From NCBI RefSeq assembly GCF_964204865.1, contig NC_135252.1:18745383-18809382 (forward strand): a stretch of 64,000 nt of DNA. Direction: 5' to 3'. The stretch is from Styela clava. Lineage: Eukaryota > Chordata > Ascidiacea > Stolidobranchia > Styelidae. Every line of letters starts with the position of its first letter. Position 1 is the stretch's first letter. Positions 3,711 through 64,000 of this stretch are shown in pieces. A program made the position numbers and the translations under genes. Below the pieces are notes generated by a model, which was not told the DNA's origin, searched no databases, and saw only the letters and a list, made by a program, of their open reading frames with translations.

Positions 3711-5249
3711 AGCGTTACTATATGTTTCCCATATAATGTCCATATTTGTGATGAGCACGGTGCTGAATACAATCATTTGTCTTGAGTTTGCAAGCTATAT
3801 CTATAAATAACCAGGCAATGTGAATTAAATTGGCGCTTATTTTATGTTAAGTGTTGATCGGTCTCTTCAATCCCATTCCTGATTTTATTTAAAATACATT
3901 TCTAAAGTATGTCAATAATATTTTGCCACCGTTCAACATCTCTTTGTCTGAACGTGTTGGTCCATTCCAGATAGAGAGCACGTATAAAACAACAATGCCA
4001 TGTATACAACGCCTGTTTCTGTTATTATGTCATTCAAATAGTATCGTTATCAAACTACTTTAAACTTTAAACTAACTTTAAAGTAGATTCCCTAAATGTG
4101 TATGTCTATCCTGATCAGAGGGCACGTGTACAAAACAATAATATACCTGTTTCTGTCCATTTATTAGTTTAATATTTATTATGTTGGGTATCTCAAAGAA
4201 ATAATTACAAAGTAGTAATGACAACTTAATTGCAAAGCCAACACAGTAAATTAGACTGAAAAACATCTTACTTCCTAATTATACATTATATGATTTGATA
4301 GTTTAAAGAATAAATTGATTTCCTATAAGCGTAAATTTTCTATACATTGAGTACTTTTTATTTGGATTTTAAAGTTCTATCCTATTATAGTTCTATTCAG
4401 TAGATCCGAATACAGGGCCAATTAAGATGCTCGTGGATGAGTCTTCTTCTGATGAGAAGCTGCTAAGCTCTGAAGAATAGAGCCAATTATAATATCTATC
4501 TATAAAATGAGATGAATAAATTTGTATCTCCAAGTTCAAGGACCTGCAGATCTCGCCTGGATCCACTGATATACGAGATATATATTGGGCATGAAAATGA
4601 CCTACGCATGCTGAAGAGCATGAATCTTTTGTTTATCAAACTCAAGCTGCGCCATTGCAGGAGCAATCCGATGTCTTATTAACTGTTTATAGTAGCGAGC
4701 GGCGAGGATTCATGGCCTAATTACTGATAAATAAAATTATCTCTACATTTGAAACAAATAAATAGTTCTACGTTTAAAAGATCAGAAATATTAAAATTGT
4801 AATAATGATCAGATTCGTTGTTGCTCATATAAATTAGTATACATAGCTAATTATCGATATTTCCTTAAGATGTGTCGAAATATAAGGACATTATATTGGT
4901 TAAAACTGTTCATTTCATTTTGATAAGTTTTCAAGGTTTAGTTTCTCGAATTCAGAAAATTCATTTATTCGATCGTATTTAACTTTTTACACTTTTATAT
5001 ATTGTTTGGTACAAGAATTATTGACTTGATTAAAAAAATTGTCAAATATCAGTTTTGTGAAATTTTGACACGCTTCTATTCTGGAATATTGATTTACAAA
5101 TTTAAAACGATTGAAACAGGCATGAGGTCCCCCCTACCTTGCCTAATGGTGAATTCGCACTAGACACACCACAATATTGCTCTAATGCTGTCAGACCTAG
5201 GAACACTCAGGAAATTATAAAATCCAGATTTTATGCATTTGCCGTGAAT
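3711..5249. other. Array-edge non-coding interval downstream of gene copy 1
   Basis: This corresponds to 13863-15800 in monomer 2 without the insert. It contains the diverged left edge and the duplicated CACGTATAAAAC-type motif (here partly mutated). It also holds a moderately GC-rich 4430-4700 stretch with two short open frames, one a run of Ser, Asp and Glu codons starting at the ATG at 4428. I see no gene that I can defend. Confidence 0.5.
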
Positions 5250-5255
5250 TTTATT
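5250..5255 (-). promoter_or_regulatory. Polyadenylation signal of gene copy 1
   Basis: AATAAA on the minus strand about 100 bases after the TAA stop. The 3' untranslated region in between contains a short GGTC tetranucleotide repeat (5331-5346). Confidence 0.65.
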
Positions 5256-5356
5256 TCAAAAGCAAAATATGTTAAACGCAATTGATGTAAACTCAACAGC
5301 CTAAACGATAACTAAACTAAAATGATTGTTGGTCGGTCGGTCGGTCATTGTTGCAT

Positions 5357-8300
5357 TTAAGCACATCCACAACGAATGTATTGGTAACATCTATTGCGTC
5401 TAACGATTCTGAATCTTCTGTAAGTGCTATAAAAAAGAATATATTATATAATACTAAACCATGTGCGTAAAAAATGACATTATCACTTGGAAAATTATCT
5501 TAATCTCAAAGGATTGAGCATTCGTATATTGAATATGCTTGTTTGCCGGACATGAACCAAAACCAACTTTGTTCATTGATAAATTTAGAAGAACTCACCA
5601 GAAGCGCCTGATTTTGTAGCGGTACACCCTGTAGGTAGGCAAGGCACATTTGTATCTGAAGACAACACGGATCTTTGGGACGGAGAATTTAGCACGGTAA
5701 GTGCATCTGTAAGAACAAGCGTAGTGTCTTGTGAATGTACGGATGTGTTTCCTCCATGCTCTGTCAAACTTGCGAAGTACCCTGTTTCTGTCAGATCTTG
5801 CCTTGAGTTTGTATGCATTGTAGAGTCTGCGGGCTGCACCACGGAGTCTTTTGCTGGTGTAGAATTTCATGAATTTAGCATATTGCCTCACCTTCAGCTT
5901 GTAGATCTGAAAAAGGATATCAATTAAAAATCTTTATAAAAAATCTCTAAAAAACTTTATTTATTTTGTATACCAGAAAATTATGTTTGAAAAATAAAAT
6001 ATTATTCAAAATATTATTCAAATTAATTTAACACTTACAATAGTTTACCTTGGTCAGACGTCTTGAAAGGCGTGTCCTCATTCTCCTTCTCAGTTTCTTG
6101 AGACGCCTGCTGTATTTGGTGATTCTTATTTTTCTGGTAGACAAACAACGTTTGTAACCCTTAACAACTCTGGAGATCAAACGGTTGATCATCTTCTTGT
6201 AGCTAGCAATTCTGGATTTGTAGAACTTGGTGGCTCTTGCAAGTCTTCTTGCGAGCATTTTCTTGTATTTTCTGATTGCCCTTCTCTTTTGACGACGCAA
6301 TTGTCTCTTGTATGCTGCAAACTTTCTCAAATAACGTTTAGTGATGCGTTGGGATCTGTGAACAACATAAATATTTTTGCGTGCATTCAACTCAGTCATA
6401 ACCGTCTGGAGGTGAATTATATTATACATAATGACTTCCAATATATTGATTTAGAAAACTAAATTCAACTCTTTTTGTAATGAACTCACCTGCACAAGTA
6501 AGTGGATCTGAAATAGGTTCTCAAAACTATGTGTCTCTTGTTGACAATTTTGGTGAATCTTTTCAATGCGCTCTTGTTACGTCTGATAGCAAGTTTTCTC
6601 CATGCTCTGTATTTTCTCCATGCGGCGGAAATTGCCTTGTTTCTTCTGGTTTTCAGCTTTTTGGTGAATTTCTTGACAGATACATTGACCTTTTCTAAAA
6701 TTTATTATATTATTTTAAAATAACACAAAATGTAACATAAAATATTAAAAATTCGTGGGAAATGTCTCACTGGTGTTACAAGATTTCAATTTCTTGAATC
6801 TCATTTGTCTGTACTTGAATCTGTAAGTGATCAAACGGAAGCATCTGGATCTTCTGATTTTGAATCTCCACACGTATCTGATTCTGCGGCTAGAAAATAT
6901 TAACAAATCATAAAATAAATTTCTACCAATGTTACATTCAAAATTTAGTCAAACCAGTTCAATATCAAATAAACTTTTGTCGTCTTACCAGGTACGGTAA
7001 TAACGTCTTCTTCTGAAGCACAAAGTTCCTGTTGCACATTGATAAGCACATGCGTAATTCTTCACAAGTCTGGCGGTTGCACTTCTCAGCTTGCGGCTGT
7101 ATACGCTGGCCCTTCTCAGGTATGCTCTTGTTTCACGTCTTCTGAAGACTCTGATAACTTTGCGCACGTCACGTCTTTTCCATGTTCTAGAGCCTGAGAA
7201 AAATAATTCATTTTATACTCAAGACAGATAACACACAAATATGTGGACAGGAAAGATTCGTCAATGACATTGTCACGCAGTTTTTAGAACAAGGATTGAC
7301 AAATCAAATGAGGGTGAAATAGATTAGTGGTACTACGAATTTGACAAAGCACAGTAGTCAGTTGTAAAATATTGATGATAGAAAAACAATTGTTTTTGAA
7401 AATTGAAGCCACAATTCAACACAAATGATCAATACTTTCAATTTGTTCATGATGATACTTCGAATGCCAAACAAAATGCTTTTTGTATTCAAAATTGTTT
7501 ATTTGAAAGTAAAACTACTTACAATGGACTCTAGTGAGGAGTTTCTTGAAGATGGCAACTCTCTTGGTGACGAATCTCTTCATGACCTTCTTGTACCTTC
7601 TCACATATTTGTTCATGCGTTTCTTCAAAGATCTTCTGTATTTGGTAATTCTGGTCTTGCGGTTTCTGAAGCACCTTACAGAGCTGTAAATAATATGTTA
7701 TATCATTTTGTATAGAAATCTTCATGCACATTATGTCTATCTATGAAGTTAATCATACAATCTGCGAAGTCTTCTGTGGAACTTGAGAACAGTACTGTAC
7801 ATTCTCTTCATAACTCTCTTGTAACTCTTGACTGCACGTCTGTACATTCTGCTGATAGCAGCATTGTATTTTCTGATTGCCTTACTCTTCAACTTGAGGA
7901 TACGTCTTCTCTCACGCCTTGAAGCACGACTGTAAATAACAAATTTTAAATCATGTCATGAGAATGCATTTATAAGTCGCAACATTAGTGGACTTACCGA
8001 AGGTATCTTTTGGTGTATTTGTTGACTGATCTTCTGTATTTTCTTTTGGCTGCAGACACGCGAACGCACATTACATTGTACCATTTTCTGTAGCTCTTCT
8101 TCATTTGTTTGTGGATTGAGAGGGCTCTTCTGGACAAACGAGTTCTGACAACCCGAACGAACTTCCTTTCAGACCATTCTTAAAATTTCATATAGAAAAT
8201 AATGCATAAGAAATGTCAAATGAAATTTCCTGGCTATCATCTAATTTCCTGGAGCAAATGTGCACAAATTAATAAAAATTCGAATTTGTATATTTATTGC

Positions 8301-8912
8301 TCCACACTTTATATTGTACATTAGTATTTGTGTATATATGGGGTATTTGTAGTGGTATACGTGATATTGGACGTCCTTGCAACGGCCAGTTTCTTCATTT
8401 TTTTTTCATTGACGCATCAATTTGGAAAATAATAAAGACAAAAGCTATTTCAGGGTGAAATTCTTAGAGACATTTTTATTAATATTATGTCTAATCAAAC
8501 AGACAGAAAAACTGTCAAACATGACATTGTCTGTTTCCACAAATAATGTATTATTTGGCTGAATTCCCTTTGCATGACATGGCTGTTTATAAACTTTCAA
8601 TAAAAATTACCTCTGAATTTTCGGGAGGTGCATCTCTTTCCGGGATATGAGGTCAACACAGAGCGATAGTATCTAGAAGTGCACCATGCTTGTTTGAACT
8701 TGAAGCTGAATCGGAAACACGTGGATGGGAAAGTGTAATATCTCCTGACGTTCCAGCGGACGTAACCGCAGTGACTGGGTTGAATGTAAACGGCGGCATT
8801 TGCTGCCTGAAAATGGAAGATTTTGGTTGTCAAACAAAATTGAAAACTAATTTAATACCTTAAGATCTATACTTACGGCCAAGCAGACCAAAAGTACTAA
8901 CAGAGTCTTCAT
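5357..8912 (-). CDS. Secreted, extremely basic Tyr/Cys-containing protein, copy 1 (11 exons, 652 aa)
   Basis: I do not recognise the family. Coding exons, first to last: 8877-8912, 8611-8806, 7998-8178, 7759-7929, 7523-7683, 6989-7193, 6771-6889, 6490-6694, 6049-6355, 5599-5906, 5357-5426. All introns are GT-AG (68-432 bp) and phases agree throughout, giving 1959 coding bases. Exon 1 encodes a signal peptide (MKTLLVLLVCLA, cleavage probably near residue 16). The mature part has about 36% Lys+Arg, 53 Tyr, 22 Cys and seven acidic residues (hand counts). Cys-rich segments with alternating basic/aromatic residues lie at 25-71, 297-354 and 591-652; Lys/Arg/Tyr helical blocks lie at about 78-249 and 357-585. 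Residues 433-520 form four 22-residue repeats. The motif YACxYxC occurs at 295-301 and 589-595. A secreted polycation is likely; structural, adhesive or antimicrobial roles are guesses. The exon 4 donor (GTATGA) and exon 9 donor (GTAAAC) are weak but required by phase. Confidence 0.85.
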
Positions 8913-8937
8913 GATTGTCTCTACTCGGTGTCGAATA

Positions 8938-10573: not shown

Positions 10574-11800
10574 GTAGATGCTAATTTAAAAAATAAGTTA
10601 TTTGAAAAATTGACACAGAAATTTTCATCACTACTCAAATGACTACAGTGGTGCATTTTTCTCGTAATGACAAAATTGTTGACACAATCTGATATGTTAA
10701 AGCTTAGTGCTTTGGCAGCCAAACTAAATATCTTAATAACAAAGTCTTTATACTACGCATTAGTCCTACTTGTAATATTTCAAGAAATACAAAGGGTTGA
10801 TGTTGTGGTTGAAAATAGCTGCATTGTTGTTTTATCAACAGCAGTCAGGAAGTTAAAGGCAAACAAGACAAAAGTTACAATTATCCAATTATGCATATGT
10901 GTTGGTTATCAGAACTTTTTTTTCATAATAGCAATGTACACGATATTAGTGTTTACTTTGTAAGGTTTCAATAATAATTAGGAGTGAACATATGATTTGA
11001 AATACTCATTATGTTGTTTCATCGACAAGCTTTATGACTTGATTGAAAACAATGAAATATATACATCATCTCATTATGAAGTTGTGTTGATTTATTAGCA
11101 AGCGTATGTTATTTTAATGTTTAATTTCCAAGTTTGTAATCACAGTCACTATGCAATGCCTTGATGCTGCAATTGGATATTTTGAAAGATAATAATAAAT
11201 TGCATCATGCAACCGATGTAAAATAAATAAAATAAAAAAAGGTTACAAGCTATAATTATAGGTTGAATTTCTCATTTCAACCTAACGTTCCTTTGAATGA
11301 CTACTTTGTATTTCAATCCATAAATATTTAAATAAATTGAATATTTGACGTCACAACTTTATTGCAATTTCCAGTAACGGTAAAAAATCCCGAAAAAGGG
11401 AGTCGCCGCATTACAAAACAAGTCATCAACAGAAACTTGAAACTTTGCTTGATATGTCTTATTAGTTTGTAAGTTATATGTTTACGTAAACGCTCCATCT
11501 TGTTTTTTCGCCAATTTTATCATTCATATAACAAGAAAATTACGACAATATATGCAAATAAAAAAATCGTCGAAAAAAGAAACGAAAATAAATCAAAATT
11601 TGAATACGGCTTGTGATATTAAATAAGGCTAATCAGAAAATATATTTATTATTGCTATAAGATAGTTACTTGTTTCTTTTAGCATGGTATATATGAAAAA
11701 TCTTAACAATATTTCCCATCTACCATGGAGAAGACCCTTTTTTTCTAACTTATTACTAAGAAATTAAATATGAGGTTGACCTAAGTTACAATTATTGAGA
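10574..11800. repeat. Spacer repeat R, copy A (monomer 1)
   Basis: It starts GTAGATGCTAATTTAAA and contains CACTACTCAAATGACTACAG, TTGTTTTATCAACAGCAGTC, TGCATATGTGTTGGTTATC and TTGCATCATGCAACC in order. All four landmarks recur in the same order in copy B. Relative to B it holds an extra segment of about 330 bp (around 11310-11640). A 98-codon frame at 10667-10963 lies inside it but is not preserved in copy B, so I do not call a gene. Equivalents start at 21192, 31798, 42371, 52979 and 63585. Confidence 0.7.
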
Positions 11801-11899
11801 ACATACTTATGCAATATTCAAAACATAAAATCAAAGACACTGTTGATTTATCGAGGCCAAGCTTAGCAAGGTCACCATCATATGACCATTTTAATTAAA

Positions 11900-12800: not shown

Positions 12801-12811
12801 CACAATCAATA

Positions 12812-15800: not shown

Positions 15801-15806
15801 TTTATT
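15801..15806 (-). promoter_or_regulatory. Polyadenylation signal of gene copy 2
   Basis: AATAAA on the minus strand about 100 bases after the stop codon, in the same context as in the other copies. Confidence 0.65.
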
Positions 15807-15907: not shown

Positions 15908-18900
15908 TTAAGCACATCCACAACGAATGTATTGGTAACATCTATTGCGTCTAACGATTCTGAATCTTCTGTAAGTGCTATAAAAAAGAATATATTATAT
16001 AATACTAAACAATGTGCGTAAAAAATGACATTATCACTTGGAAAATTATCTTAATCTCAAAGGATTGAGCATTCGTATATTGAATATGCTTGTTTGCCGG
16101 ACATGAACCAAAACCAACTTTGTTCATTGATAAATTTAGAAGAACTCACCAGAAGCGCCTGATTTTGTAGCGGTACACCCTGTAGGTAGGCAAGGCACAT
16201 TTGTATCTGAAGACAACACGGATCTTTGGGACGGAGAATTTAGCACGGTAAGTGCATCTGTAAGAACAAGCGTAGTGTCTTGTGAATGTACGGATGTGTT
16301 TCCTCCATGCTCTGTCGAACTTGCGAAGTACCCTGTTTCTGTCAGATCTTGCCTTGAGTTTGTATGCATTGTAGAGTCTGCGGGCTGCACCACGGAGTCT
16401 TTTGCTGGTGTAGAATTTCATGAATTTAGCATATTGCCTCACCTTCAGCTTGTAGATCTGAAAAAGGATATCAATCATAACAATTTGGATTAAAAATCTT
16501 TATAAAAAATCTCTAAAAAACTTTATTTATTTTGTATACCAGAAAATTATGTTTGAAAAATAAACTAAATTCAATGAAAAATTCCTATTCTCTAAAAATA
16601 TTACAATGTATGGGCTTCAAAATAATATTCAAATTAATTTAACACTTACAATAGTTTACCTTGGTCAGACGTCTTGAAAGGCGTGTCCTCATTCTCCTTC
16701 TCAGTTTCTTGAGACGCCTGCTGTATTTGGTGATTCTTATTTTTCTGGTAGACAAACAACGTTTGTAACCCTTAACAACTCTGGAGATCAAACGGTTGAT
16801 CATCTTCTTGTAGCTAGCAAGTCTGGATTTGTAGAACTTGGTGGCTCTTGCAAGTCTTCTTGCGAGCATTTTCTTGTATTTTCTGATTGCCCTTCTCTTT
16901 TGACGACGCAATTGTCTCTTGTATGCTGCAAACTTTCTCAAATAACGTTTAGTGATGCGTTGGGATCTGTGAACAACATAAATATTTTTGCGTGCATTCA
17001 ACTCAGTCATAACCGTCTGGAGGTGAATTATATTATACATAATGACTTCCAATATATTGATTTAGAAAACTAAATTCAACTCTTTTTGTAATGAACTCAC
17101 CTGCACAAGTAAGTGGATCTGAAATAGGTTCTCAAAACTATGTGTCTCTTGTTGACAATTTTGGTGAATCTTTTCAATGCGCTCTTGTTACGTCTGATAG
17201 CAAGTTTTCTCCATGCTCTGTATTTTCTCCATGCGGCGGAAATTGCCTTGTTTCTTCTGGTTTTCAGCTTTTTGGTGAATTTCTTGACAGATACATTGAC
17301 CTTTTCTAAAATTTATTATATTATTTTAAAATAACACAAAATGTAACATAAAATATTAAAAATTCGTGGGAAATGTCTCACTGGTGTTACAAGATTTCAA
17401 TTTCTTGAATCTCATTTGTCTGTACTTGAATCTGTAAGTGATCAAACGGAAGCATCTGGATCTTCTGATTTTGAATCTCCACACGTATCTGATTCTGCGG
17501 CTAGAAAATATTAACAAATCATAAAATAAATTTCTACCAATGTTACATTCAAAATTTAGTCAAACCAGTTCAATATCAAATAAACTTTTGTCGTCTTACC
17601 AGGTACGGTAATAACGTCTTCTTCTGAAGCACAAAGTTCCTGTTGCACATTGATAAGCACATGCGTAATTCTTCACAAGTCTGGCGGTTGCACTTCTCAG
17701 CTTGCGGCTGTATACGCTGGCCCTTCTCAGGTATGCTCTTGTTTCACGTCTTCTGAAGACTCTGATAACTTTGCGCACGTCACGTCTTTTCCATGTTCTA
17801 GAGCCTGAAAAAAATAATTCATTTTATACTCAAGACAGATAACACACAAATATGTGGACAGGAAAGATTCGTCAATGACATTGTCACGCAGTTTTTAGAA
17901 CAAGGATTGACAAATCAAATGAGGGTGAAATAGATTAGTGGTACTACGAATTTGACAAAGCACAGTAGTCAGTTGTAAAATATTGATGATAGAAAAACAA
18001 TTGTTTTTAAAAATTGAAGCCACAATTCAACACAAATGATCAATACTTTCAATTTGTTCATGATGATACTTCGAATGCCAAACAAAATGCTTTTTGTATT
18101 CAAAATTGTTTATTTGAAAGTAAAACTACTTACAATGGACTCTAGTGAGGAGTTTCTTGAAGATGGCAACTCTCTTGGTGACGAATCTCTTCATGACCTT
18201 CTTGTACCTTCTCACATATTTGTTCATGCGTTTCTTCAAAGATCTTCTGTATTTGGTAATTCTGGTCTTGCGGTTTCTGAAGCACCTTACAGAGCTGTAA
18301 ATAATATGTTATATCATTTTGTATAGAAATCTTCATGCACATTATGTCTATCTATGAAGTTAATCATACAATCTGCGAAGTCTTCTGTGGAACTTGAGAA
18401 CAGTACTGTACATTCTCTTCATAACTCTCTTGTAACTCTTGACTGCACGTCTGTACATTCTGCTGATAGCAGCAATGTATTTTCTGATTGCCTTACTCTT
18501 CAACTTGAGGATACGTCTTCTCTCACGCCTTGAAGCACGACTGTAAATAACAAATTTTAAATCATGTCATGAGAATGCATTTATAAGTCGCAACATTAGT
18601 GGACTTACCGAAGGTATCTTTTGGTGTATTTGTTGACTGATCTTCTGTATTTTCTTTTGGCTGCAGACACGCGAACGCACATTACATTGTACCATTTTCT
18701 GTAGCTCTTCTTCATTTGTTTGTGGATTGAGAGGGCTCTTCTGGACAAACGAGTTCTGACAACCCGAACGAACTTCCTTTCAGACCATTCTTAAAATTTC
18801 ATATAGAAAATAATGCATAAGAAATGTCAAATGAAATTTCCTGGCTATCATCTTATTTCCTGGAGCAAATGTGCACAAATTAATAAAAATTCGAATTTGT

Positions 18901-19529
18901 ATATTTATTGCTCCACACTTTATATTGTACATTAGTATTTGTGTATATATGGGGTATTTGTAGTGGTATACGTGATATTGGACGTCCTTGCAACGGCCAG
19001 TTTCTTCATTTCATTTTTTTTTCCATTGACGCATCAATTTGGACAATAATAAAGACAAAAGCTATTTCAGGGTGAAATTCTTAGAGACATTTTTATTAAT
19101 ATTATGTCTAATCAAACAGACAGAAAAACTGTCAAACATGACATTGTCTGTTTCCACAAATAATGTATTATTTGGCTGAATTCCCTTTGCATGACATGGC
19201 TGTTTATAAACTTTCAATAAAAATTACCTCTGAATTTTCGGGAGGTGCATCTCTTTCCGGGATATGAGGTCAACACAGAGCGATAGTATCTAGAAGTGCA
19301 CCATGCTTGTTTGAACTTGAAGCTGAATCGGAAACACGTGGATGGGAAAGTGTAATATCTCCTGACGTTCCAGCGGACGTAACCGCAGTGACTGGGTTGA
19401 ATGTAAACGGCGGCATTTGCTGCCTGAAAATGGAAGATTTTGGTTGTCAAACAAAATTGAAAACTAATTTAATACCTTAAGATCTATACTTACGGCCAAG
19501 CAGACCAGAAGTACTAACAGAGTCTTCAT
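15908..19529 (-). CDS. Secreted, extremely basic Tyr/Cys-containing protein, copy 2
   Basis: Exons, first to last: 19494-19529, 19228-19423, 18609-18789, 18370-18540, 18134-18294, 17600-17804, 17382-17500, 17101-17305, 16660-16966, 16150-16457, 15908-15977. Exon lengths and phases equal copy 1, giving 652 residues without an internal stop. Intron 9 (16458-16659) is about 60 bp longer than in copy 1. Compared with copy 1 I see two amino-acid changes: Asn160 to Ile in exon 4 (unique to this copy) and Ile474 to Leu in exon 9. All splice dinucleotides are kept. Function as for copy 1; the family is unrecognised. Confidence 0.85.
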
Positions 19530-19554: not shown

Positions 19555-19589
19555 AGGACTGATTTTTGCAGAAAATTTCCCAGTATATA
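19555..19589 (-). promoter_or_regulatory. Core promoter of gene copy 2
   Basis: TATATA at 19584-19589 and the initiator TCAGTCC keep the 29-base spacing seen in copy 1. Confidence 0.7.
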
Positions 19590-26518: not shown

Positions 26519-29500
26519 TTAAGCACATCCACAACGAATGTATTGGTAACATCTATTGCGTCTAACGATTCTGAATCTTCTGTAAGTGCTATAAAAAAGA
26601 ATATATTATATAATACTAAACAATGTGCGTAAAAAATGACATTATCACTTGGAAAATTATCTTAATCTCAAAGGATTGAGCATTCGTATATTGAATATGC
26701 TTGTTTGCCGGACATGAACCAAAACCAACTTTGTTCATTGATAAATTTAGAACTCACCAGAAGCGCCTGATTTTGTAGCGGTACACCCTGTAGGTAGGCA
26801 AGGCACATTTGTATCTGAAGACAACACGGATCTTTGGGACGGAGAATTTAGCACGGTAAGTGCATCTGTAAGAACAAGCGTAGTGTCTTGTGAATGTACG
26901 GATGTGTTTCCTCCATGCTCTGTCGAACTTGCGAAGTACCCTGTTTCTGTCAGATCTTGCCTTGAGTTTGTATGCATTGTAGAGTCTGCGGGCTGCACCA
27001 CGGAGTCTTTTGCTGGTGTAGAATTTCATGAATTTAGCATATTGCCTCACCTTCAGCTTGTAGATCTGAAAAAGGATATCAATCATAACAATTTGGATTA
27101 AAAATCTTTATAAAAAATCTCTAAAAAACTTTATTTATTTTGTATACCAGAAAATTATGTTTGAAAAATAAACTAAATTCAATAAAAAATTCCTATTTTC
27201 TAAAATTATTACAAAGTATGGGCTTCAAAATATTATTCAAATTAATTTAACACTTACAATAGTTTACCTTGGTCAGACGTCTTGAAAGGCGTGTCCTCAT
27301 TCTCCTTCTCAGTTTCTTGAGACGCCTGCTGTATTTGGTGATTCTTATTTTTCTGGTAGACAAACAACGTTTGTAACCCTTAACAACTCTGGAGATCAAA
27401 CGGTTGATCATCTTCTTGTAGCTAGCAATTCTGGATTTGTAGAACTTGGTGGCTCTTGCAAGTCTTCTTGCGAGCATTTTCTTGTATTTTCTGATTGCCC
27501 TTCTCTTTTGACGACGCAATTGTCTCTTGTATGCTGCAAACTTTCTCAAATAACGTTTAGTGATGCGTTGGGATCTGTGAACAACATAAATATTTTTGCG
27601 TGCATTCAACTCAGTCATAACCGTCTGGAGGTGAATTATATTATACATAATGACTTCCAATATATTGATTTAGAAAACTAAATTCAACTCTTTTTGTAAT
27701 GAACTCACCTGCACAAGTAAGTGGATCTGAAATAGGTTCTCAAAACTATGTGTCTCTTGTTGACAATTTTGGTGAATCTTTTCAATGCGCTCTTGTTACG
27801 TCTGATAGCAAGTTTTCTCCATGCTCTGTATTTTCTCCATGCGGCGGAAATTGCCTTGTTTCTTCTGGTTTTCAGCTTTTTGGTGAATTTCTTGACAGAT
27901 ACATTGACCTTTTCTAAAATTTATTATATTATTTTAAAATAACACAAAATGTAACATAAAATATTAAAAATTCGTGGGAAATGTCTCACTGGTGTTACAA
28001 GATTTCAATTTCTTGAATCTCATTTGTCTGTACTTGAATCTGTAAGTGATCAAACGGAAGCATCTGGATCTTCTGATTTTGAATCTCCACACGTATCTGA
28101 TTCTGCGGCTAGAAAATATTAACAAATCATAAATTAAATTTTTACCAATGTTACATTCAAAATTTAGTCAAACCAGTTCAATATCAAATAAACTTTTGTC
28201 GTCTTACCAGGTACGGTAATAACGTCTTCTTCTGAAGCACAAAGTTCCTGTTGCACATTGATAAGCACATGCGTAATTCTTCACAAGTCTGGCGGTTGCA
28301 CTTCTCAGCTTGCGGCTGTATACGCTGGCCCTTCTCAGGTATGCTCTTGTTTCACGTCTTCTGAAGACTCTGATAACTTTGCGCACGTCACGTCTTTTCC
28401 ATGTTCTAGAGCCTGAGAAAAATAATTCATTTTATACTCAAGACAGATAACACACAAATATGTGGACAGGAAAGATTCATCAATGACATTGTCACGCAGT
28501 TTTTAGAACAAGGATTGACAAATCAAATGAGGGTGAAATAGATTAGTGGTACTACGAATTTGACAAAGCACAGTAGTCAGTTGTAAAATATTGATGATAG
28601 AAAAACAATTGTTTTTAAAAATTGAAGCCACAATTCAACACAAATGATCAATACTTTCAATTTGTTCATGATGATACTTCGAATGCCAAACAAAATGCTT
28701 TTTGTATTCAGAATAGTTTTGAAAGTAAAACTACTTACAATGGACTCTAGTGAGGAGTTTCTTGAAGATGGCAACTCTCTTGGTGACGAATCTCTTCATG
28801 ACCTTCTTGTACCTTCTCACATATTTGTTCATGCGTTTCTTCAAAGATCTTCTGTATTTGGTAATTCTGGTCTTGCGGTTTCTGAAGCACCTCACAGAGC
28901 TGTAAATAATATGTTATATCATTTTGTATAGAAATCTTCATGCACATTATGTCTATCTATGAAGTTAATCATACAATCTGCGAAGTCTTCTGTGGAACTT
29001 GAGAACAGTACTGTACATTCTCTTCATAACTCTCTTGTAACTCTTGACTGCACGTCTGTACATTCTGCTGATAGCAGCATTGTATTTTCTGATTGCCTTA
29101 CTCTTCAACTTGAGGATACGTCTTCTCTCACGCCTTGAAGCACGACTGTAAATAACAAATTTTAAATCATGTCATGAGAATGCATTTAAAAGTCGCAACA
29201 TTAGTGGACTTACCGAAGGTATCTTTTGGTGTATTTGTTGACTGATCTTCTGTATTTTCTTTTGGCTGCAGACACGCGAACGCACATTACATTGTACCAT
29301 TTTCTGTAGCTCTTCTTCATTTGTTTGTGGATTGAGAGGGCTCTTCTGGACAAACGAGTTCTGACAACCCGAACGAACTTCCTTTCAGACCATTCTTAAA
29401 ATTTCATATAGAAAATAATGCATAAGAAATGTCAAATGAAATTTCCTGGCTATCATCTAATTTCCTGGAGCAAATGTGCACAAATTAATAAAAATTCGAA

Positions 29501-30136
29501 TTTGTATATTTATTGCTCCACACTTTATATTGTACATTAGTATTTGTGTATATATGGGGTATTTGTAGTGGTATACGTGATATTGGACGTCCTTGCAACG
29601 GCCAGTTTCTTCATTTCATTTTTTTTTTTTCATTGACGCATCAATTTGGCAAATAATAAAGACAAAAGCTATTTCAGGGTGAAATTCTTAGAGACATTTT
29701 TATTAATATTATGTCTAATCGAACAGACAGAAAAACTGTCAAACATGACATTGTCTGTTTCCACAAATAATGTATTATTTGGCTGAATTCCCTTTGCATG
29801 ACATGGCTGTTTATAAACTTTCAATAAAAATTACCTCTGAATTTTCGGGAGGTGCATCTCTTTCCGGGATATGAGGTCAACACAGAGCGATAGTATCTAG
29901 AAGTGCACCATGCTTGTTTGAACTTGAAGCTGAATCGGAAACACGTGGATGGGAAAGTGTAATATCTCCTGACGTTCCAGCGGACGTAACCGCAGTGACT
30001 GGGTTGAATGTAAACGGCGGCATTTGCTGCCTGAAAATGGAAGATTTTGGTTGTCAAACAAAATTGAAAACTAATTTAATACCTTAAGATCTATACTTAC
30101 GGCCAAGCAGACCAGAAGTACTAACAGAGTCTTCAT
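26519..30136 (-). CDS. Secreted, extremely basic Tyr/Cys-containing protein, copy 3
   Basis: Exons, first to last: 30101-30136, 29835-30030, 29214-29394, 28975-29145, 28739-28899, 28208-28412, 27990-28108, 27709-27913, 27268-27574, 26758-27065, 26519-26588. Reading phase is unbroken for 652 residues. By eye the protein equals copy 1 (Asn160, Ile474). A silent GTA to GTG change lies at the second full codon of exon 5. Intron 10 is three bases shorter, having lost one GAA next to the exon 10 donor, and intron 5 is three bases shorter; neither affects splice signals. Same promoter and 3' end as the other copies. Confidence 0.85.
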
Positions 30137-40000: not shown

Positions 40001-40716
40001 ATGCAAAAGAAATGTCAAATAAAATTTCCTGGCTATCATCTAATTTCCTGGAGTAAATGTGCACAAATTAATAAAAATTCGAATTTGTATATTTATTGCT
40101 TCACACTTTATATTGTACATTAGTATTTGTGTATATATGGGGTATTTGTGGTGGTATACGTGATATTGGACGTCCTTGCAACGGCCAGTTTCTTCATTTC
40201 ATTTTTTTTTCATTGACGCATCAATTTGGCAAATAATAAAGACAAAAGCTATTTCAGGGTGAAATTCTTAGAGACATTTTTATTAATATTATGTCTAATC
40301 AAACAGACAGAAAAACTGTCAAACATGACATTGTCTGTTTCCACAAATAATGTATTATTTGGCTGAATTCCCTTTGCATGACATGGCTGTTTATAAACTT
40401 TCAATAAAAATTACCTCTGAATTTTCGAGAGGTGCATCTCTTTCCGGGATATGAGGTCAACACAGAGCGATAGTATCTAGAAGTGCACCATGCTTGTTTG
40501 AACTTGAAGCTGAATCGGAAACACGTGGATGGGAAAGTGTAATATCTCCTGACGTTCCAGCGGACGTAACCGCAGTGACTGGGTTGAATGTAAACGGCGG
40601 CATTTGCTGCCTGAAAATGTAAGATTTTGGTTGTCGAACAAAATTGAAAACTAATTTAATACCTTAAGATATATACTTACGGCCAAGCAGACCAGAAGTA
40701 CTAACAGAGTCTTCAT
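37094..40716 (-). CDS. Secreted, extremely basic Tyr/Cys-containing protein, copy 4 (most diverged copy)
   Basis: Exons, first to last: 40681-40716, 40415-40610, 39797-39977, 39558-39728, 39322-39482, 38783-38987, 38565-38683, 38284-38488, 37843-38149, 37333-37640, 37094-37163. The frame is intact for 652 residues. Changes against copy 1: Thr356 to Asn at the end of exon 7, Lys371-Thr372 to Arg-Ala in exon 8, Ile474 to Leu in exon 9 and Thr584 to Ser in exon 10. All are conservative for charge. The exon 7 donor is GTAAGA instead of GTGAGA, which supports the inferred junction. Silent changes lie in exons 2 and 3. Intron 1 has lost the G before a poly-A stretch upstream of the acceptor without touching the CAG. 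Confidence 0.85.
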
Positions 40717-47694: not shown

Positions 47695-50600
47695 TTAAGC
47701 ACATCCACAACGAATGTATTGGTAACATCTATTGCGTCTAACGATTCTGAATCTTCTGTAAGTGCTATAAAAAAGAATATATTATATAATACTAAACAAT
47801 GTGCGTAAAAAATGACATTATCACTTGGAAAATTATCTTAATCTCAAAGGATTGAGCATTCGTATATTGAATATGCTTGTTTGCCGGACATGAACCAAAA
47901 CCAACTTTGTTCATTGATAAATTTAGAAGAACTCACCAGAAGCGCCTGATTTTGTAGCGGTACACCCTGTAGGTAGGCAAGGCACATTTGTATCTGAAGA
48001 CAACACGGATCTTTGGGACGGAGAATTTAGCACGGTAAGTGCATCTGTAAGAACAAGCGTAGTGTCTTGTGAATGTACGGATGTGTTTCCTCCATGCTCT
48101 GTCGAACTTGCGAAGTACCCTGTTTCTGTCAGATCTTGCCTTGAGTTTGTATGCATTGTAGAGTCTGCGGGCTGCACCACGGAGTCTTTTGCTGGTGTAG
48201 AATTTCATGAATTTAGCATATTGCCTCACCTTCAGCTTGTAGATCTGAAAAAGGATATCAATCATAACAATTTGGATTAAAAATCTTTATAAAAAATCTC
48301 TAAAAAACTTTATTTATTTTGTATACCAGAAAATTATGTTTGAAAAATAAACTAAATTCAATGAAAAATTCCTATTCTCTAAAAATATTACAATGTATGG
48401 GCTTCAAAATAATATTCAAATTAATTTAACACTTACAATAGTTTACCTTGGTCAGACGTCTTGAAAGGCGTGTCCTCATTCTCCTTCTCAGTTTCTTGAG
48501 ACGCCTGCTGTATTTGGTGATTCTTATTTTTCTGGTAGACAAACAACGTTTGTAACCCTTAACAACTCTGGAGATCAAACGGTTGATCATCTTCTTGTAG
48601 CTAGCAAGTCTGTATTTGTAGAACTTGGTGGCTCTTGCAAGTCTTCTTGCGAGCATTTTCTTGTATTTTCTGATTGCCCTTCTCTTTTGACGACGCAATT
48701 GTCTCTTGTATGCTGCAAACTTTCTCAAATAACGTTTAGTGATGCGTTGGGATCTGTGAACAACATAAATATTTTTGCGTGCATTCAACTCAGTCATAAC
48801 CGTCTGGAGGTGAATTATATTATACATAATGACTTCCAATATATTGATTTAGAAAACTAAATTCAACTCTTTTTGTAATGAACTCACCTGCACAAGTAAG
48901 TGGATCTGAAATAGGTTCTCAAAACTATGTGTCTCTTGTTGACAATTTTGGTGAATCTTTTCAATGCGCTCTTGTTACGTCTGATAGCAAGTTTTCTCCA
49001 TGCTCTGTATTTTCTCCATGCGGCGGAAATTGCCTTGTTTCTTCTGGTTTTCAGCTTTTTGGTGAATTTCTTGACAGATACATTGACCTTTTCTAAAATT
49101 TATTATATTATTTTAAAATAACACAAAATGTAACATAAAATATTAAAAATTCGTGGGAAATGTCTCACTGGTGTTACAAGATTTCAATTTCTTGAATCTC
49201 ATTTGTCTGTACTTGAATCTGTAAGTGATCAAACGGAAGCATCTGGATCTTCTGATTTTGAATCTCCACACGTATCTGATTCTGCGGCTAGAAAATATTA
49301 ACAAATCATAAAATAAATTTCTACCAATGTTACATTCAAAATTTAGTCAAACCAGTTCAATATCAAATAAACTTTTGTCGTCTTACCAGGTACGGTAATA
49401 ACGTCTTCTTCTGAAGCACAAAGTTCCTGTTGCACATTGATAAGCACATGCGTAATTCTTCACAAGTCTGGCGGTTGCACTTCTCAGCTTGCGGCTGTAT
49501 ACGCTGGCCCTTCTCAGGTATGCTCTTGTTTCACGTCTTCTGAAGACTCTGATAACTTTGCGCACGTCACGTCTTTTCCATGTTCTAGAGCCTGAAAAAA
49601 ATAATTCATTTTATACTCAAGACAGATAACACACAAATATGTGGACAGGAAAGATTCGTCAATGACATTGTCACGCAGTTTTTAGAACAAGGATTGACAA
49701 ATCAAATGAGGGTGAAATAGATTAGTGGTACTACGAATTTGACAAAGCACAGTAGTCAGTTGTAAAATATTGATGATAGAAAAACAATTGTTTTTAAAAA
49801 TTGAAGCCACAATTCAACACAAATGATCAATACTTTCAATTTGTTCATGATGATACTTCGAATGCCAAACAAAATGCTTTTTGTATTCAAAATTGTTTAT
49901 TTGAAAGTAAAACTACTTACAATGGACTCTAGTGAGGAGTTTCTTGAAGATGGCAACTCTCTTGGTGACGAATCTCTTCATGACCTTCTTGTACCTTCTC
50001 ACATATTTGTTCATGCGTTTCTTCAAAGATCTTCTGTATTTGGTAATTCTGGTCTTGCGGTTTCTGAAGCACCTTACAGAGCTGTAAATAATATGTTATA
50101 TCATTTTGTATAGAAATCTTCATGCACATTATGTCTATCTATGAAGTTAATCATACAATCTGCGAAGTCTTCTGTGGAACTTGAGAACAGTACTGTACAT
50201 TCTCTTCATAACTCTCTTGTAACTCTTGACTGCACGTCTGTACATTCTGCTGATAGCAGCATTGTATTTTCTGATTGCCTTACTCTTCAACTTGAGGATA
50301 CGTCTTCTCTCACGCCTTGAAGCACGACTGTAAATAACAAATTTTAAATCATGTCATGAGAATGCATTTATAAGTCGCAACATTAGTGGACTTACCGAAG
50401 GTATCTTTTGGTGTATTTGTTGACTGATCTTCTGTATTTTCTTTTGGCTGCAGACACGCGAACGCACATTACATTGTACCATTTTCTGTAGCTCTTCTTC
50501 ATTTGTTTGTGGATTGAGAGGGCTCTTCTGGACAAACGAGTTCTGACAACCCGAACGAACTTCCTTTCAGACCATTCTTAAAATTTCATATAGAAAATAA

Positions 50601-51316
50601 TGCATAAGAAATGTCAAATGAAATTTCCTGGCTATCATCTTATTTCCTGGAGCAAATGTGCACAAATTAATAAAAATTCGAATTTGTATATTTATTGCTC
50701 CACACTTTATATTGTACATTAGTATTTGTGTATATATGGGGTATTTGTAGTGGTATACGTGATATTGGACGTCCTTGCAACGGCCAGTTTCTTCATTTCA
50801 TTTTTTTTTCCATTGACGCATCAATTTGGACAATAATAAAGACAAAAGCTATTTCAGGGTGAAATTCTTAGAGACATTTTTATTAATATTATGTCTAATC
50901 AAACAGACAGAAAAACTGTCAAACATGACATTGTCTGTTTCCACAAATAATGTATTATTTGGCTGAATTCCCTTTGCATGACATGGCTGTTTATAAACTT
51001 TCAATAAAAATTACCTCTGAATTTTCGGGAGGTGCATCTCTTTCCGGGATATGAGGTCAACACAGAGCGATAGTATCTAGAAGTGCACCATGCTTGTTTG
51101 AACTTGAAGCTGAATCGGAAACACGTGGATGGGAAAGTGTAATATCTCCTGACGTTCCAGCGGACGTAACCGCAGTGACTGGGTTGAATGTAAACGGCGG
51201 CATTTGCTGCCTGAAAATGGAAGATTTTGGTTGTCAAACAAAATTGAAAACTAATTTAATACCTTAAGATCTATACTTACGGCCAAGCAGACCAGAAGTA
51301 CTAACAGAGTCTTCAT
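47695..51316 (-). CDS. Secreted, extremely basic Tyr/Cys-containing protein, copy 5
   Basis: Exons, first to last: 51281-51316, 51015-51210, 50396-50576, 50157-50327, 49921-50081, 49387-49591, 49169-49287, 48888-49092, 48447-48753, 47937-48244, 47695-47764. Intact, 652 residues. Relative to its near-identical partner, copy 2, it has Asn160 instead of Ile and carries Ser472 to Tyr within the second 22-residue repeat of exon 9, a change found in no other copy. It shares Leu474 with copies 2 and 4. Confidence 0.85.
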
Positions 51317-51341
51317 GATTGTCTCTACTCGGTGTCGAATA

Positions 51342-58204: not shown

Positions 58205-58305
58205 TCAAAAGCAAAATATGTTAAACGCAATTGATGTAAACTCAACAGCCTAAACTATAACTAAACTAAAATGATTGTTGGTCGGTCGTTCGGTCATTGT
58301 TGCAT

Positions 58306-61300
58306 TTAAGCACATCCACAACGAATGTATTGGTAACATCTATTGCGTCTAACGATTCTGAATCTTCTGTAAGTGCTATAAAAAAGAATATATTATATAA
58401 TACTAAACAATGTGCGTAAAAAATGACATTATCACTTGGAAAATTATCTTAATCTCAAAGGATTGAGCATTCGTATATTGAATATGCTTGTTTGCCGGAC
58501 ATGAACCAAAACCAACTTTGTTCATTGATAAATTTAGAACTCACCAGAAGCGCCTGATTTTGTAGCGGTACACCCTGTAGGTAGGCAAGGCACATTTGTA
58601 TCTGAAGACAACACGGATCTTTGGGACGGAGAATTTAGCACGGTAAGTGCATCTGTAAGAACAAGCGTAGTGTCTTGTGAATGTACGGATGTGTTTCCTC
58701 CATGCTCTGTCGAACTTGCGAAGTACCCTGTTTCTGTCAGATCTTGCCTTGAGTTTGTATGCATTGTAGAGTCTGCGGGCTGCACCACGGAGTCTTTTGC
58801 TGGTGTAGAATTTCATGAATTTAGCATATTGCCTCACCTTCAGCTTGTAGATCTGAAAAAGGATATCAATCATAACAATTTGGATTAAAAATCTTTATAA
58901 AAAATCTCTAAAAAACTTTATTTATTTTGTATACCAGAAAATTATGTTTGAAAAATAAACTAAATTCAATAAAAAATTCCTATTTTCTAAAATTATTACA
59001 AAGTATGGGCTTCAAAATATTATTCAAATTAATTTAACACTTACAATAGTTTACCTTGGTCAGACGTCTTGAAAGGCGTGTCCTCATTCTCCTTCTCAGT
59101 TTCTTGAGACGCCTGCTGTATTTGGTGATTCTTATTTTTCTGGTAGACAAACAACGTTTGTAACCCTTAACAACTCTGGAGATCAAACGGTTGATCATCT
59201 TCTTGTAGCTAGCAATTCTGGATTTGTAGAACTTGGTGGCTCTTGCAAGTCTTCTTGCGAGCATTTTCTTGTATTTTCTGATTGCCCTTCTCTTTTGACG
59301 ACGCAATTGTCTCTTGTATGCTGCAAACTTTCTCAAATAACGTTTAGTGATGCGTTGGGATCTGTGAACAACATAAATATTTTTGCGTGCATTCAACTCA
59401 GTCATAACCGTCTGGAGGTGAATTATATTATACATAATGACTTCCAATATATTGATTTAGAAAACTAAATTCAACTCTTTTTGTAATGAACTCACCTGCA
59501 CAAGTAAGTGGATCTGAAATAGGTTCTCAAAACTATGTGTCTCTTGTTGACAATTTTGGTGAATCTTTTCAATGCGCTCTTGTTACGTCTGATAGCAAGT
59601 TTTCTCCATGCTCTGTATTTTCTCCATGCGGCGGAAATTGCCTTGTTTCTTCTGGTTTTCAGCTTTTTGGTGAATTTCTTGACAGATACATTGACCTTTT
59701 CTAAAATTTATTATATTATTTTAAAATAACACAAAATGTAACATAAAATATTAAAAATTCGTGGGAAATGTCTCACTGGTGTTACAAGATTTCAATTTCT
59801 TGAATCTCATTTGTCTGTACTTGAATCTGTAAGTGATCAAACGGAAGCATCTGGATCTTCTGATTTTGAATCTCCACACGTATCTGATTCTGCGGCTAGA
59901 AAATATTAACAAATCATAAATTAAATTTTTACCAATGTTACATTCAAAATTTAGTCAAACCAGTTCAATATCAAATAAACTTTTGTCGTCTTACCAGGTA
60001 CGGTAATAACGTCTTCTTCTGAAGCACAAAGTTCCTGTTGCACATTGATAAGCACATGCGTAATTCTTCACAAGTCTGGCGGTTGCACTTCTCAGCTTGC
60101 GGCTGTATACGCTGGCCCTTCTCAGGTATGCTCTTGTTTCACGTCTTCTGAAGACTCTGATAACTTTGCGCACGTCACGTCTTTTCCATGTTCTAGAGCC
60201 TGAGAAAAATAATTCATTTTATACTCAAGACAGATAACACACAAATATGTGGACAGGAAAGATTCATCAATGACATTGTCACGCAGTTTTTAGAACAAGG
60301 ATTGACAAATCAAATGAGGGTGAAATAGATTAGTGGTACTACGAATTTGACAAAGCACAGTAGTCAGTTGTAAAATATTGATGATAGAAAAACAATTGTT
60401 TTTAAAAATTGAAGCCACAATTCAACACAAATGATCAATACTTTCAATTTGTTCATGATGATACTTCGAATGCCAAACAAAATGCTTTTTGTATTCAGAA
60501 TAGTTTTGAAAGTAAAACTACTTACAATGGACTCTAGTGAGGAGTTTCTTGAAGATGGCAACTCTCTTGGTGACGAATCTCTTCATGACCTTCTTGTACC
60601 TTCTCACATATTTGTTCATGCGTTTCTTCAAAGATCTTCTGTATTTGGTAATTCTGGTCTTGCGGTTTCTGAAGCACCTCACAGAGCTGTAAATAATATG
60701 TTATATCATTTTGTATAGAAATCTTCATGCACATTATGTCTATCTATGAAGTTAATCATACAATCTGCGAAGTCTTCTGTGGAACTTGAGAACAGTACTG
60801 TACATTCTCTTCATAACTCTCTTGTAACTCTTGACTGCACGTCTGTACATTCTGCTGATAGCAGCATTGTATTTTCTGATTGCCTTACTCTTCAACTTGA
60901 GGATACGTCTTCTCTCACGCCTTGAAGCACGACTGTAAATAACAAATTTTAAATCATGTCATGAGAATGCATTTATAAGTCGCAACATTAGTGGACTTAC
61001 CGAAGGTATCTTTTGGTGTATTTGTTGACTGATCTTCTGTATTTTCTTTTGGCTGCAGACACGCGAACGCACATTACATTGTACCATTTTCTGTAGCTCT
61101 TCTTCATTTGTTTGTGGATTGAGAGGGCTCTTCTGGACAAACGAGTTCTGACAACCCGAACGAACTTCCTTTCAGACCATTCTTAAAATTTCATATAGAA
61201 AATAATGCATAAGAAATGTCAAATGAAATTTCCTGGCTATCATCTAATTTCCTGGAGCAAATGTGCACAAATTAATAAAAATTCGAATTTGTATATTTAT

Positions 61301-61923
61301 TGCTCCACACTTTATATTGTACATTAGTATTTGTGTATATATGGGGTATTTGTAGTGGTATACGTGATATTGGACGTCCTTGCAACGGCCAGTTTCTTCA
61401 TTTCATTTTTTTTTTTTCATTGACGCATCAATTTGGCAAATAATAAAGACAAAAGCTATTTCAGGGTGAAATTCTTAGAGACATTTTTATTAATATTATG
61501 TCTAATCGAACAGACAGAAAAACTGTCAAACATGACATTGTCTGTTTCCACAAATAATGTATTATTTGGCTGAATTCCCTTTGCATGACATGGCTGTTTA
61601 TAAACTTTCAATAAAAATTACCTCTGAATTTTCGGGAGGTGCATCTCTTTCCGGGATATGAGGTCAACACAGAGCGATAGTATCTAGAAGTGCACCATGC
61701 TTGTTTGAACTTGAAGCTGAATCGGAAACACGTGGATGGGAAAGTGTAATATCTCCTGACGTTCCAGCGGACGTAACCGCAGTGACTGGGTTGAATGTAA
61801 ACGGCGGCATTTGCTGCCTGAAAATGGAAGATTTTGGTTGTCAAACAAAATTGAAAACTAATTTAATACCTTAAGATCTATACTTACGGCCAAGCAGACC
61901 AGAAGTACTAACAGAGTCTTCAT
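58306..61923 (-). CDS. Secreted, extremely basic Tyr/Cys-containing protein, copy 6
   Basis: Exons, first to last: 61888-61923, 61622-61817, 61001-61181, 60762-60932, 60526-60686, 59995-60199, 59777-59895, 59496-59700, 59055-59361, 58545-58852, 58306-58375. Intact, 652 residues. I found no amino-acid difference from copy 3, its partner at -31,787, nor from copy 1. The three-base losses in introns 5 and 10 are shared with copy 3, confirming common descent of the two. Confidence 0.85.
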
Positions 61924-61948
61924 GATTGTCTCTACTCGGTGTCGAATA

Positions 61949-61983
61949 AGGACTGATTTTTGCAGAAAATTTCCCAGTATATA
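61949..61983 (-). promoter_or_regulatory. Core promoter of gene copy 6
   Basis: TATATA at 61978-61983 and the initiator TCAGTCC, spacing conserved. Confidence 0.7.
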
Positions 61984-64000
61984 TGCTGTAGAAATCCACT
62001 TCATAATTCCTGATTGTTCATTATAAATTTATCGAAGCAAACACTTCTTCGGGTTGAAGGGCTTTGTAATTTTGGGTGTGTCTTTTAGTTGTCAGGGCAA
62101 TATGCATCAATACTTTAGATTGTGCCAATAATACGCCTATATCATTGAAATAACTTTGTGTCTTAGGTCATCTTCCTTTTTTATTAGTTAATAAACACAT
62201 CCCTCCTCTTGTAATAGCTAAATGATACTCGTGCTATTGCGTGTGTATAGTGTGTTGTTAGAAACAGTTTGATGCCTGGGATTATATGTTTAAAACGTAG
62301 CTCAACATTGCTTCATGTTTATATTGAGCAGACAATACCAACAATAGCCAATTCTCAAGTAGAGTCTTTTAGCATGATCGTGTTTTTAAAGATTTACCGA
62401 TCATTTCGTTGCTGAAAAAAAATTATTTAATGTTATACATTTAATAAAAAATAAAAAGTCAATTATAGTTTTGCTAAACAAAAAATAATTCAGATAACAC
62501 CAAAGTGTTTAAAAAGTTTCCTATATCGGAACAGTATATTATTAATTTCAAGTATAAATTTGCTATATTGCCTGATTGTTACATATTCCAGTTTTATATT
62601 TGTATTTAATTTCGAATTTCTACTAATTGGCCTTTCCGTGATAATGAAATAGGGAATAGTAAAAAATTTATGTCTTCAAAAATACACAATATATATTGTG
62701 TAAAGTAAACAAGGGGGCAAAGCTCAAATATAAGAACATAAATTCCAATACGTACGGCAAACTTCACGACTAACGCAAACGTGAACCGCCGCAAGATGCG
62801 CGATTTCTTGATGAGGTAATCACACACTAAAAACGAATCTCATAGAGCCAACAGAAATTTTTGAAATGAATAAAAGTAATTGCCTAGCGACCAATACAAT
62901 TTTTTTCACTGAAAATTTCAAAGCAATTGGTCCAGTAGGTAATAAAAAAAAAGTGAAGAAGGAAAGGAATATTAACAACATGATGATCAACAACAACATA
63001 ATACCAAAACGCTCCATAGGTACTCTCCAATAAGGGTTATACCATATTCCAGGCTAAACGAAGTATGTATAATGATTCTTCGGTCTCGTTCAGCGTGAAG
63101 ATTCAAATATTTGCTGTAGTGGGGCTGTCTATGCTGAGGTAAAGCAACAACAAGCGGGTGACCGATAATTTCAAAAGTAACGTAGCATAAAAGAGTCCAA
63201 AGATTGTACTTCCGATTACCAAGTTGAGTCGCCCGGGTTATAGCAGAATTAATGAACAATAGTGAATGAAGAATTATAAGTCAAGTATTGATAAAAACTT
63301 CATCTCTCTTGCGTTAGAACATTGCTATCTAAGAAATTAAACCACTCTTTGACAAAATTTACATTAGCATACACACACGACCTATTTCGAATAATGGGAA
63401 GCTGGTTCATTTCGATTTTTGTGTACGAAATCAAGGCGCGATTTTTGACACAGTATCTTGTTTTCTTATTACATTTGTTATCTTTCTTTGAAAGATATTC
63501 ATACATATGGTCATACTATTTTATATTCCTTCAATTTATCTTTATTATAACAACAACAAAATAAGACGATGATATATCACAATTGTAGATGCTAATTTAA
63601 AAAATAAGTTATTTGAAAAATTGACACAGAAATTTTCATCACTACTCAAATGACTACAGTGGTGCATTTTTCTCGTAATGACAAAATTGTTGACACAATT
63701 CAATATGTTAAAGCTTAGTGCTTTGGCAGCCAAACTAAATATCTTAATAACAAAGTCTTTATACTACGCATTAGTCCTACTTGTAATATTTCAAGAAATA
63801 CAAAGGGTTGATGTTGTGGTTGAAAATAGCTGCATTGTTGTTTTATCAACAGCAGTCAGGAAGTTAAAGGCAAACAAGACAAAAGTTACAATTATCCAAT
63901 TATGCATATGTGTTGGTTATCAGAACTTTTTTTTCATAATAGCAATGTACACGATATTAGTGTTTACTTTGTAAGGTTTCAATAATAATTAGGAGTGAAC
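61984..64000. other. Spacer upstream of gene copy 6, cut by window end
   Basis: Contains the upstream sequence, the minus-strand dispersed repeat near 62906-62936 and the start of spacer repeat R copy A at 63585. No gene seen. Confidence 0.6.

Follow-up and report, generated by a model that had tools for sequence, protein, structure and literature searches.

A tandem gene array of Styela clava encoding a predicted secreted polycationic protein, and its less charged paralogues

The helices of apolipoproteins are built on an 11-residue repeat, and in engineered supercharged proteins the surface charge is altered and the core is preserved. To our knowledge, a one-sided charge that extends over 600 residues is rare outside chromatin and small peptides. 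As regards ascidians, sulfated galactans and other sulfated polysaccharides are reported in the body wall and tunic (excerpts of PMC3366676), dermatan sulfates are described in the body wall (excerpt of PMC5620642), and a phenol oxidase of the blood cells is stated to be secreted into the tunic (excerpt of PMC9395347). Here we analyse a tandem array of genes for a predicted secreted protein with 233 basic and seven acidic residues in its mature part. The window, i.e. the whole stretch of 64,000 nucleotides that was analysed, corresponds to positions 18745383-18809382 of C3 (contig NC_135252.1), in a genome of 376.6 Mb and 379 contigs.

The tandem array and its genes

Comparison of the window with itself shows an array of roughly 10.6-kb units that extends from about 3.7 kb to the window end. 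The repeat offsets are mostly about 10.55-10.62 kb and multiples of this length (the commonest single offset is 31787), and identity in the long repeat blocks is 98.6-99.5%. Towards the left edge of the array it falls to 97% at 4756-6009 and 94% at 3698-4742. Each unit carries one gene copy on the minus strand, a strand that had not been stated in the sequence-only reading that preceded this work. The six complete head-to-tail copies with a 10.6-kb period described there were found again both by self-comparison and by splice-aware alignment, and a seventh copy lies just outside the window (window-relative 68940-72545). In the splice-aware alignment, the copies in the window span 5357..8912 (copy 1, with an open frame), 15908..19529 (copy 2), 26519..30136 (copy 3), 37094..40716 (copy 4), 47695..51316 (copy 5) and 58306..61923 (copy 6), all on the minus strand, and each consists of 11 exons encoding 652 amino acids.

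Copy 2, which was also joined by hand, is the reference model. Its exons on the minus strand are 19529-19494, 19423-19228, 18789-18609, 18540-18370, 18294-18134 and 17804-17600 (exons 1-6), followed by 17500-17382, 17305-17101, 16966-16660, 16457-16150 and 15977-15908 (exons 7-11). All introns are bounded by GT-AG, and the open frame of 1959 bases is translated into 652 residues. The splice-aware aligner returned 11 exons and a 1959-base coding sequence with no internal stop in 7/7 copies; this aligner leans to open frames because it penalises stops, and still it reported a stop in one paralogue (see below). The array genes are modelled as spliced from the sequence, and the conserved splice sites and open phase previously claimed for six copies extend to all seven, whose introns have diverged more than their coding sequence. 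Relative to copy 2, each of the remaining six shows 2-5 residue differences. Summed over the 21 pairs of copies, variation was 0.0020 at nonsynonymous sites (pN), 0.0039 at synonymous sites (pS) and 0.0112 in introns; since these pairs are not independent and the copies have likely been homogenised recently, the figures support constraint without measuring it.

A TATA box (TATATA) is located in copy 2 at 19584..19589 on the minus strand, 29 bases upstream of the A of a presumed initiator, AATCAGTC (19557..19564, minus strand). The polyadenylation signal AATAAA (15801..15806, minus strand) follows the start of the stop codon by 104 bases. Both arrangements, including the distances of 29 and 104 bases, recur in 7/7 array copies, in agreement with the earlier proposal that the gene was amplified together with its full promoter. 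A transposon was rejected as the nature of the repeat unit on the ground that the unit carries a gene modelled as spliced and with a signal peptide. An RNA gene was likewise rejected on the lack of any Rfam match at gathering score, and prokaryote-type open reading frames on exons that are GT-AG-bounded and conserved between arrays.

Predicted architecture and processing of the protein

The protein begins with a signal-peptide-like N-terminus, whose predicted cleavage after Ala-Asn-Ala was read by eye. The mature protein of copy 2 would then have 636 amino acids, including 147 Arg and 86 Lys (together 233, or 36.6%), 53 Tyr (8.3%), 22 Cys and seven acidic residues (4 Glu and 3 Asp), and a net charge of +226. 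The original description (652 residues, a signal peptide, about 36% Lys plus Arg, about 8% Tyr, 22 Cys, seven acidic residues) was thus accurate in every item.

An N-terminal Cys cap is followed by two similar halves, each made of a long rod and then a Cys cap, and the rod stretches are rich in Lys and Arg in the window protein and of mixed charge elsewhere in the family. In copy 2 (minus strand), the end of the signal peptide and the N-terminal Cys cap, with 4 Cys and 7 Tyr, are encoded by exon 2 (19228..19423), the first helical rod and the start of the middle Cys cap by exons 3-6 (17600..18789), and the end of the second rod and the C-terminal Cys cap by exons 10-11 (15908..16457). Exon 9 (16660..16966) encodes 102 residues that are predicted to form a single continuous helix (2-101). 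When the two halves were aligned locally with each other, the scores were 235 for the C3 protein and 232 and 111 for its C16a and C17 paralogues (see below), all higher than the maxima from 200 shuffles each (164, 101 and 72, respectively). We predict an architecture of two long helical rods alternating with three Cys-rich caps, the product of an internal duplication.

The hydrophobicity pattern of the rods is consistent with helices, its strongest period being 3.62-3.72 residues in 8/8 rods tested. Against 100 shuffles, the 95% level was exceeded by seven rods but not by rod 1 of C16a (6.7 vs. 7.3). At the heptad period of 3.5 the power was 0.4-1.8, and no heptad periodicity was found. AlphaFold2 was run without alignment on exons 9 and 10, each alone. 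Exon 9 gave one 100-residue helix with a mean pLDDT of 87.5, a result to be read considering that a single sequence rich in Lys and Arg is easily predicted as a helix without alignment; exon 10 gave helices and two strands with a mean pLDDT of only 55.9.

A peptide precursor should have frequent basic cleavage sites. Compared with 1000 shuffles in which hydrophobic, aromatic, Cys, Pro and Gly positions were held fixed, furin-type R-x-[KR]-R sites were depleted (4 vs. 10.2 expected, P 0.013), as were runs of three or more basic residues (9 vs. 21.9 expected, P 0.001). Dibasic pairs were as numerous as expected (76 vs. 79.7), and R-x-x-R was slightly above expectation (43 vs. 34.3). The depletion of furin-type and tribasic sites favours a chain that would stay intact rather than a precursor of peptides.

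A family in four arrays and its divergence in charge

A search of the genome with the window protein found relatives in three further tandem arrays, for about 35 paralogues. The gene had implicitly been taken to stand alone, which proved incorrect: it is part of a family that comprises about 42 genes, distributed over four arrays. Counted by exon 10 matches, the window array comprises 7 genes; a further 14 lie at 10.61-10.73 Mb of C16 (array C16a), 11 at 11.38-11.50 Mb of C16 (C16b) and 10 at 7.27-7.40 Mb of C17, for a total of 42. With a 65-residue query from exon 2, 42/42 candidates were scored and 41 were assigned to the family (7, 13, 11 and 10, respectively), the remaining one being non-significant. 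All these are counts of at least so many genes, with a total of about 42. A distant match at C17:3636259 (E 0.37) was left out of the family count. The GC content of the loci examined is 31.5-36.2%, which does not fit the 41-42% of Lineus longissimus (PMC8593623), a candidate source that was rejected.

Eight paralogues were modelled (3 of the 14 in C16a, 3 of the 11 in C16b and 2 of the 10 in C17), which together with the window array makes 15 of about 42 genes. Another C17 stretch, L028, holds only part of a gene and is outside the modelled set. The stretch analysed for L029 ends early, which leaves its model without a proper last exon, and the last exon of L030, from C17, was set by hand. 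Gene L022 of C16a carries an in-frame stop codon within exon 6. The arrays have the number and order of exons in common, and exon lengths match save for a small number of short indels; the C3 models correspond to those of C16a/C16b in every exon, and C17 agrees over exons 1-10, its exon 11 being the hand-set one. The window protein is 39% identical to C16a and 32% to C17, and four representative sequences share 14 invariant Cys columns, of which one falls in the signal peptide, together with 27 invariant Tyr columns. Outside the coding sequence, the C17 paralogue also has the TATA/AATCAGTC arrangement, in a diverged form, and the C16a paralogue has a TATA-like stretch without AATCAGTC; in both, AATAAA is found about 96-108 bases after the stop.

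The absence of a known family, which the sequence-only reading had claimed, agrees with our searches. The window protein had no match near cut-off in Pfam or in NCBIfam, the latter being a library built for bacteria and archaea. The PDB sequence search gave no match for exon 10 of the window protein or for the whole C16a paralogue, and no description of this protein family was found among the literature titles and abstract beginnings searched. Weak profile matches below cut-offs (CHASE6_C, ANG-1, aldehyde dehydrogenase, PhaE and others) were taken as composition effects. The rods of C16a and C17 matched PF01442 (Apolipoprotein A1/A4/E) with 19.7 bits (E 7.4e-4) and 17.5 bits (E 0.0034), respectively; membership was rejected, the curated cut-off being 90, and for the window protein PF01442 did not appear among the matches listed with E up to 1. 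Such a weak match of C16a and C17 is what amphipathic 11-residue repeats would be expected to give. This family, predicted as secreted and with helical rods and Cys caps, is real and conserved, and undescribed within the literature and libraries searched.

The arrays differ strongly in charge. The mature proteins have a net charge of +226 in the window, +68 in C17, +19 in C16a and +7 in C16b. The main basic residue in the paralogue arrays is Lys, not Arg, and the six modelled C16 mature proteins carry 85-95 acidic residues each. No net-acidic type was found among the four types modelled, a sample of 15 of about 42 genes in which a rare type could be missed. Because the eight modelled paralogues are far less charged, the polycation appears as one divergent state of a helical-rod/Cys-cap protein.

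Where the window protein is aligned with C16a, it has a basic residue at 51/88 acidic sites, 70/164 polar sites and 77/109 basic sites of C16a, as compared to only 26/193 hydrophobic and 3/64 aromatic sites. Acidic sites of C16a are still acidic in 6/88 cases, and the residue class is kept at 142/193 hydrophobic, 47/64 aromatic and 19/29 Cys sites. Over the 643 ungapped sites of the three types, private basic residues number 113 in the window protein, 22 in C16a and 28 in C17, private losses of acid 18, 0 and 3, respectively, and private acidic residues 64 in C16a and 37 in C17; with three types only and an unrooted tree, these counts leave the direction of the charge change unrooted and do not prove the window type to be the derived state. 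What emerges is a pattern of surface supercharging around a preserved core, as of a naturally supercharged protein, where the placing of the changed positions at the surface is suggested by the helix pattern. We regard as remarkable the charge state of the window branch within a family unmatched in the libraries searched.

Possible functions and comparison with known systems

Our preferred reading, held tentatively, is that of an abundant tunicate matrix or granule protein that would bind sulfated polysaccharides electrostatically and be fixed by disulfides and perhaps by Tyr cross-links. The protein would fold as a rod with a surface of +226 and would be produced on a large scale, as suggested by seven genes, TATA promoters and a raised GC content at third codon positions (GC3). 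This surface would bind to strongly sulfated polysaccharides, either in the tunic matrix or in the granules of blood cells, and the bound rods might then be fixed by disulfide bonds and possibly by Tyr/DOPA cross-links made by phenoloxidase. The paralogues of lower charge would form such rods too, but with no surface for polyanions. Whatever would follow secretion is inferred, as are polyanion binding, Tyr cross-linking or a defence role of the window protein, and the sequence is as compatible with eggs, gut or blood as with the tunic as the site.

A matrix or granule role appears likeliest given the reported sulfated polysaccharides of the tunic, the secreted phenol oxidase and the 16 matches to tyrosinase-domain exons found in this genome. 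The homeobox, GH6 and tyrosinase profiles gave 0 matches in 14 control genomes. The arthropod cuticle family PF00379 had no match in the genome, which says little since the control was also without a match. COX1 had no match either. In the same searches, the best 30 homeobox loci included three on C3 at 9.67-9.92 Mb, presumably Hox4/5-, Hox10- and Hox12/13-like, and one on C18 that we take to be Cdx-like. A GH6 cellulase domain match on C9 (E 1.5e-6) lies, by eye, soon after hydrophobic membrane-type segments, which we assume to be the arrangement of the tunicate cellulose synthase (CesA-GH6); among animals, we know of cellulose synthase only in tunicates. Taken together, the homeobox and GH6 loci indicate a tunicate with high confidence.

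The main rival to the matrix or granule reading is host defence, to which we assign a low probability. Blood cells would store the protein and release it against microbes, which it would kill by binding membranes or nucleic acids like a giant cationic antimicrobial, or after being cleaved into amphipathic cationic helical peptides. The predicted helices are indeed amphipathic and strongly cationic, and peptides that contain DOPA or are antimicrobial are known from the blood cells of ascidians, according to excerpts of PMC3039461 and, for botryllin, of PMC9966394. However, a length of 652 residues with a conserved rod/cap architecture and the few residue changes among the seven copies argue against this role, as does the fact that the eight modelled paralogues are not comparably cationic. 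Cleavage into peptides also fits poorly with the depletion of furin-type and tribasic sites, although R-x-x-R is not depleted.

Somewhat less probable still is a storage polycation, a counter-ion that would condense polyanions, heparin-like or not, inside the secretory granules of blood, test or mucous cells and would have no structural role after release. Its net charge of +226 in 636 residues and the seven-gene array would suit such a task, for which a conserved Cys/Tyr skeleton and long rods are more than a counter-ion needs. We similarly consider it improbable that the basic rods of the window protein pair with the less basic C16 and C17 rods in mixed filaments, as in acidic/basic keratins. 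The nearly gapless homology and similar periodicity of the rods, and the many acidic residues of the C16 proteins, would allow such pairing, but no modelled paralogue type is net acidic (+7, +19 and +68). Finally, it is very improbable that the charge has no selected function and that Lys and Arg codons accumulated by drift or biased mutation among redundant gene copies. The copies are recent and near-identical, which speaks for this reading, but seven of seven frames are open, coding sequence varies less than introns, hydrophobic and aromatic sites are mostly kept, Arg is spread over AGA (89), CGT (24), CGC (16) and AGG (15), and GC3 is 0.51 against an intron GC of 0.27 (0.43 and 0.31 in C17, 0.41 and 0.27 in C16a).

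Returning to the matrix or granule protein, it is quite possible, though far from assured, that selection placed Arg and Lys at the surface of a whole structural protein, left its helical core, its Cys caps and its Tyr positions in place and raised the copy number of the gene, giving a polycationic rod that glues the animal's sulfated polysaccharide matrix. A secreted protein of this charge is a puzzle for folding and trafficking. As near-neutral homologues with the same architecture exist in the same genome, a natural pair is available for testing how charge influences assembly, adhesion and binding to the matrix. The strangeness of the protein is only somewhat reduced by its relatives, because their lower charge makes the charge shift more informative. 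Were it located in the tunic, it would contribute to explaining how the cellulose of the tunicate covering is connected with its protein and its sulfated polysaccharides, and would offer a template for underwater glues.

As compared to known systems, the ascidian blood-cell peptides that contain DOPA or Tyr (ferreascidin, morulin and styelins) are compatible with the window protein in Tyr content and secretion; in the excerpted description (PMC3039461) they are of low molecular weight, unlike the protein of 652 amino acids described here, and it is by this description that they are set apart. Keratins with their acidic/basic pairs, and other helical structural proteins, resemble the family in having long rods and charge-divergent paralogues; the family differs in being predicted as secreted, in its Cys caps and in a best period of 3.62-3.72 instead of 3.5, the comparison by sequence being through Pfam alone. 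Like the rods of this family, the apolipoproteins A1/A4/E have amphipathic helices whose period is near 11/3; the family is set apart by its Cys caps. Engineered supercharged proteins likewise combine a massive change of surface charge with a core that is kept, and the window protein would be a case produced by evolution.

Block duplication within the array

The copies of the 11-exon gene lying between window positions 15908 and 61923 were compared in pairs, and their introns showed no difference between copies 2 and 5 (0/1663) and a single one between copies 3 and 6 (1/1659). This identity or near-identity of the introns points to a higher-order repeat, in which two or more units were copied together to a position about 31.8 kb away.

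The spacer carries two or three diverged direct copies (77-90% identity) of an element of 0.1-0.7 kb at window 10574-13005, which is also found at the equivalent place in other units of the array.

Edges of the array

At the left edge, a stretch of about 280 bases (window ~4720-5000) is an interspersed repeat: the genome matches listed include about 30 partial, diverged copies of it (65-93%), spread over many chromosomes. Past the seventh copy, a 157-base remnant of the unit (86%) was found at G000:C3:18821377-18821533 (C3 being the contig of the window), probably close to the array end. The flanks (loci L010 and L013) contain transposase-like open frames, DDE_1 in one (E 7.2e-16) and P-element-type in the opposite one (E 1.2e-22).

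Loci elsewhere in the genome

In the C16a paralogue array on contig C16, exon 6 of the first gene (L022, ~10.61 Mb) is interrupted by an in-frame stop, so the family is not intact in every copy.

The best 30 homeobox loci included numerous mutually similar open frames on C3, C10, C13, C16 and C19 (L037, L039-L041, L043, L044, L046-L051, L053-L057 and L059), apparently a lineage-specific homeobox expansion, whose members we take to be Not-like.
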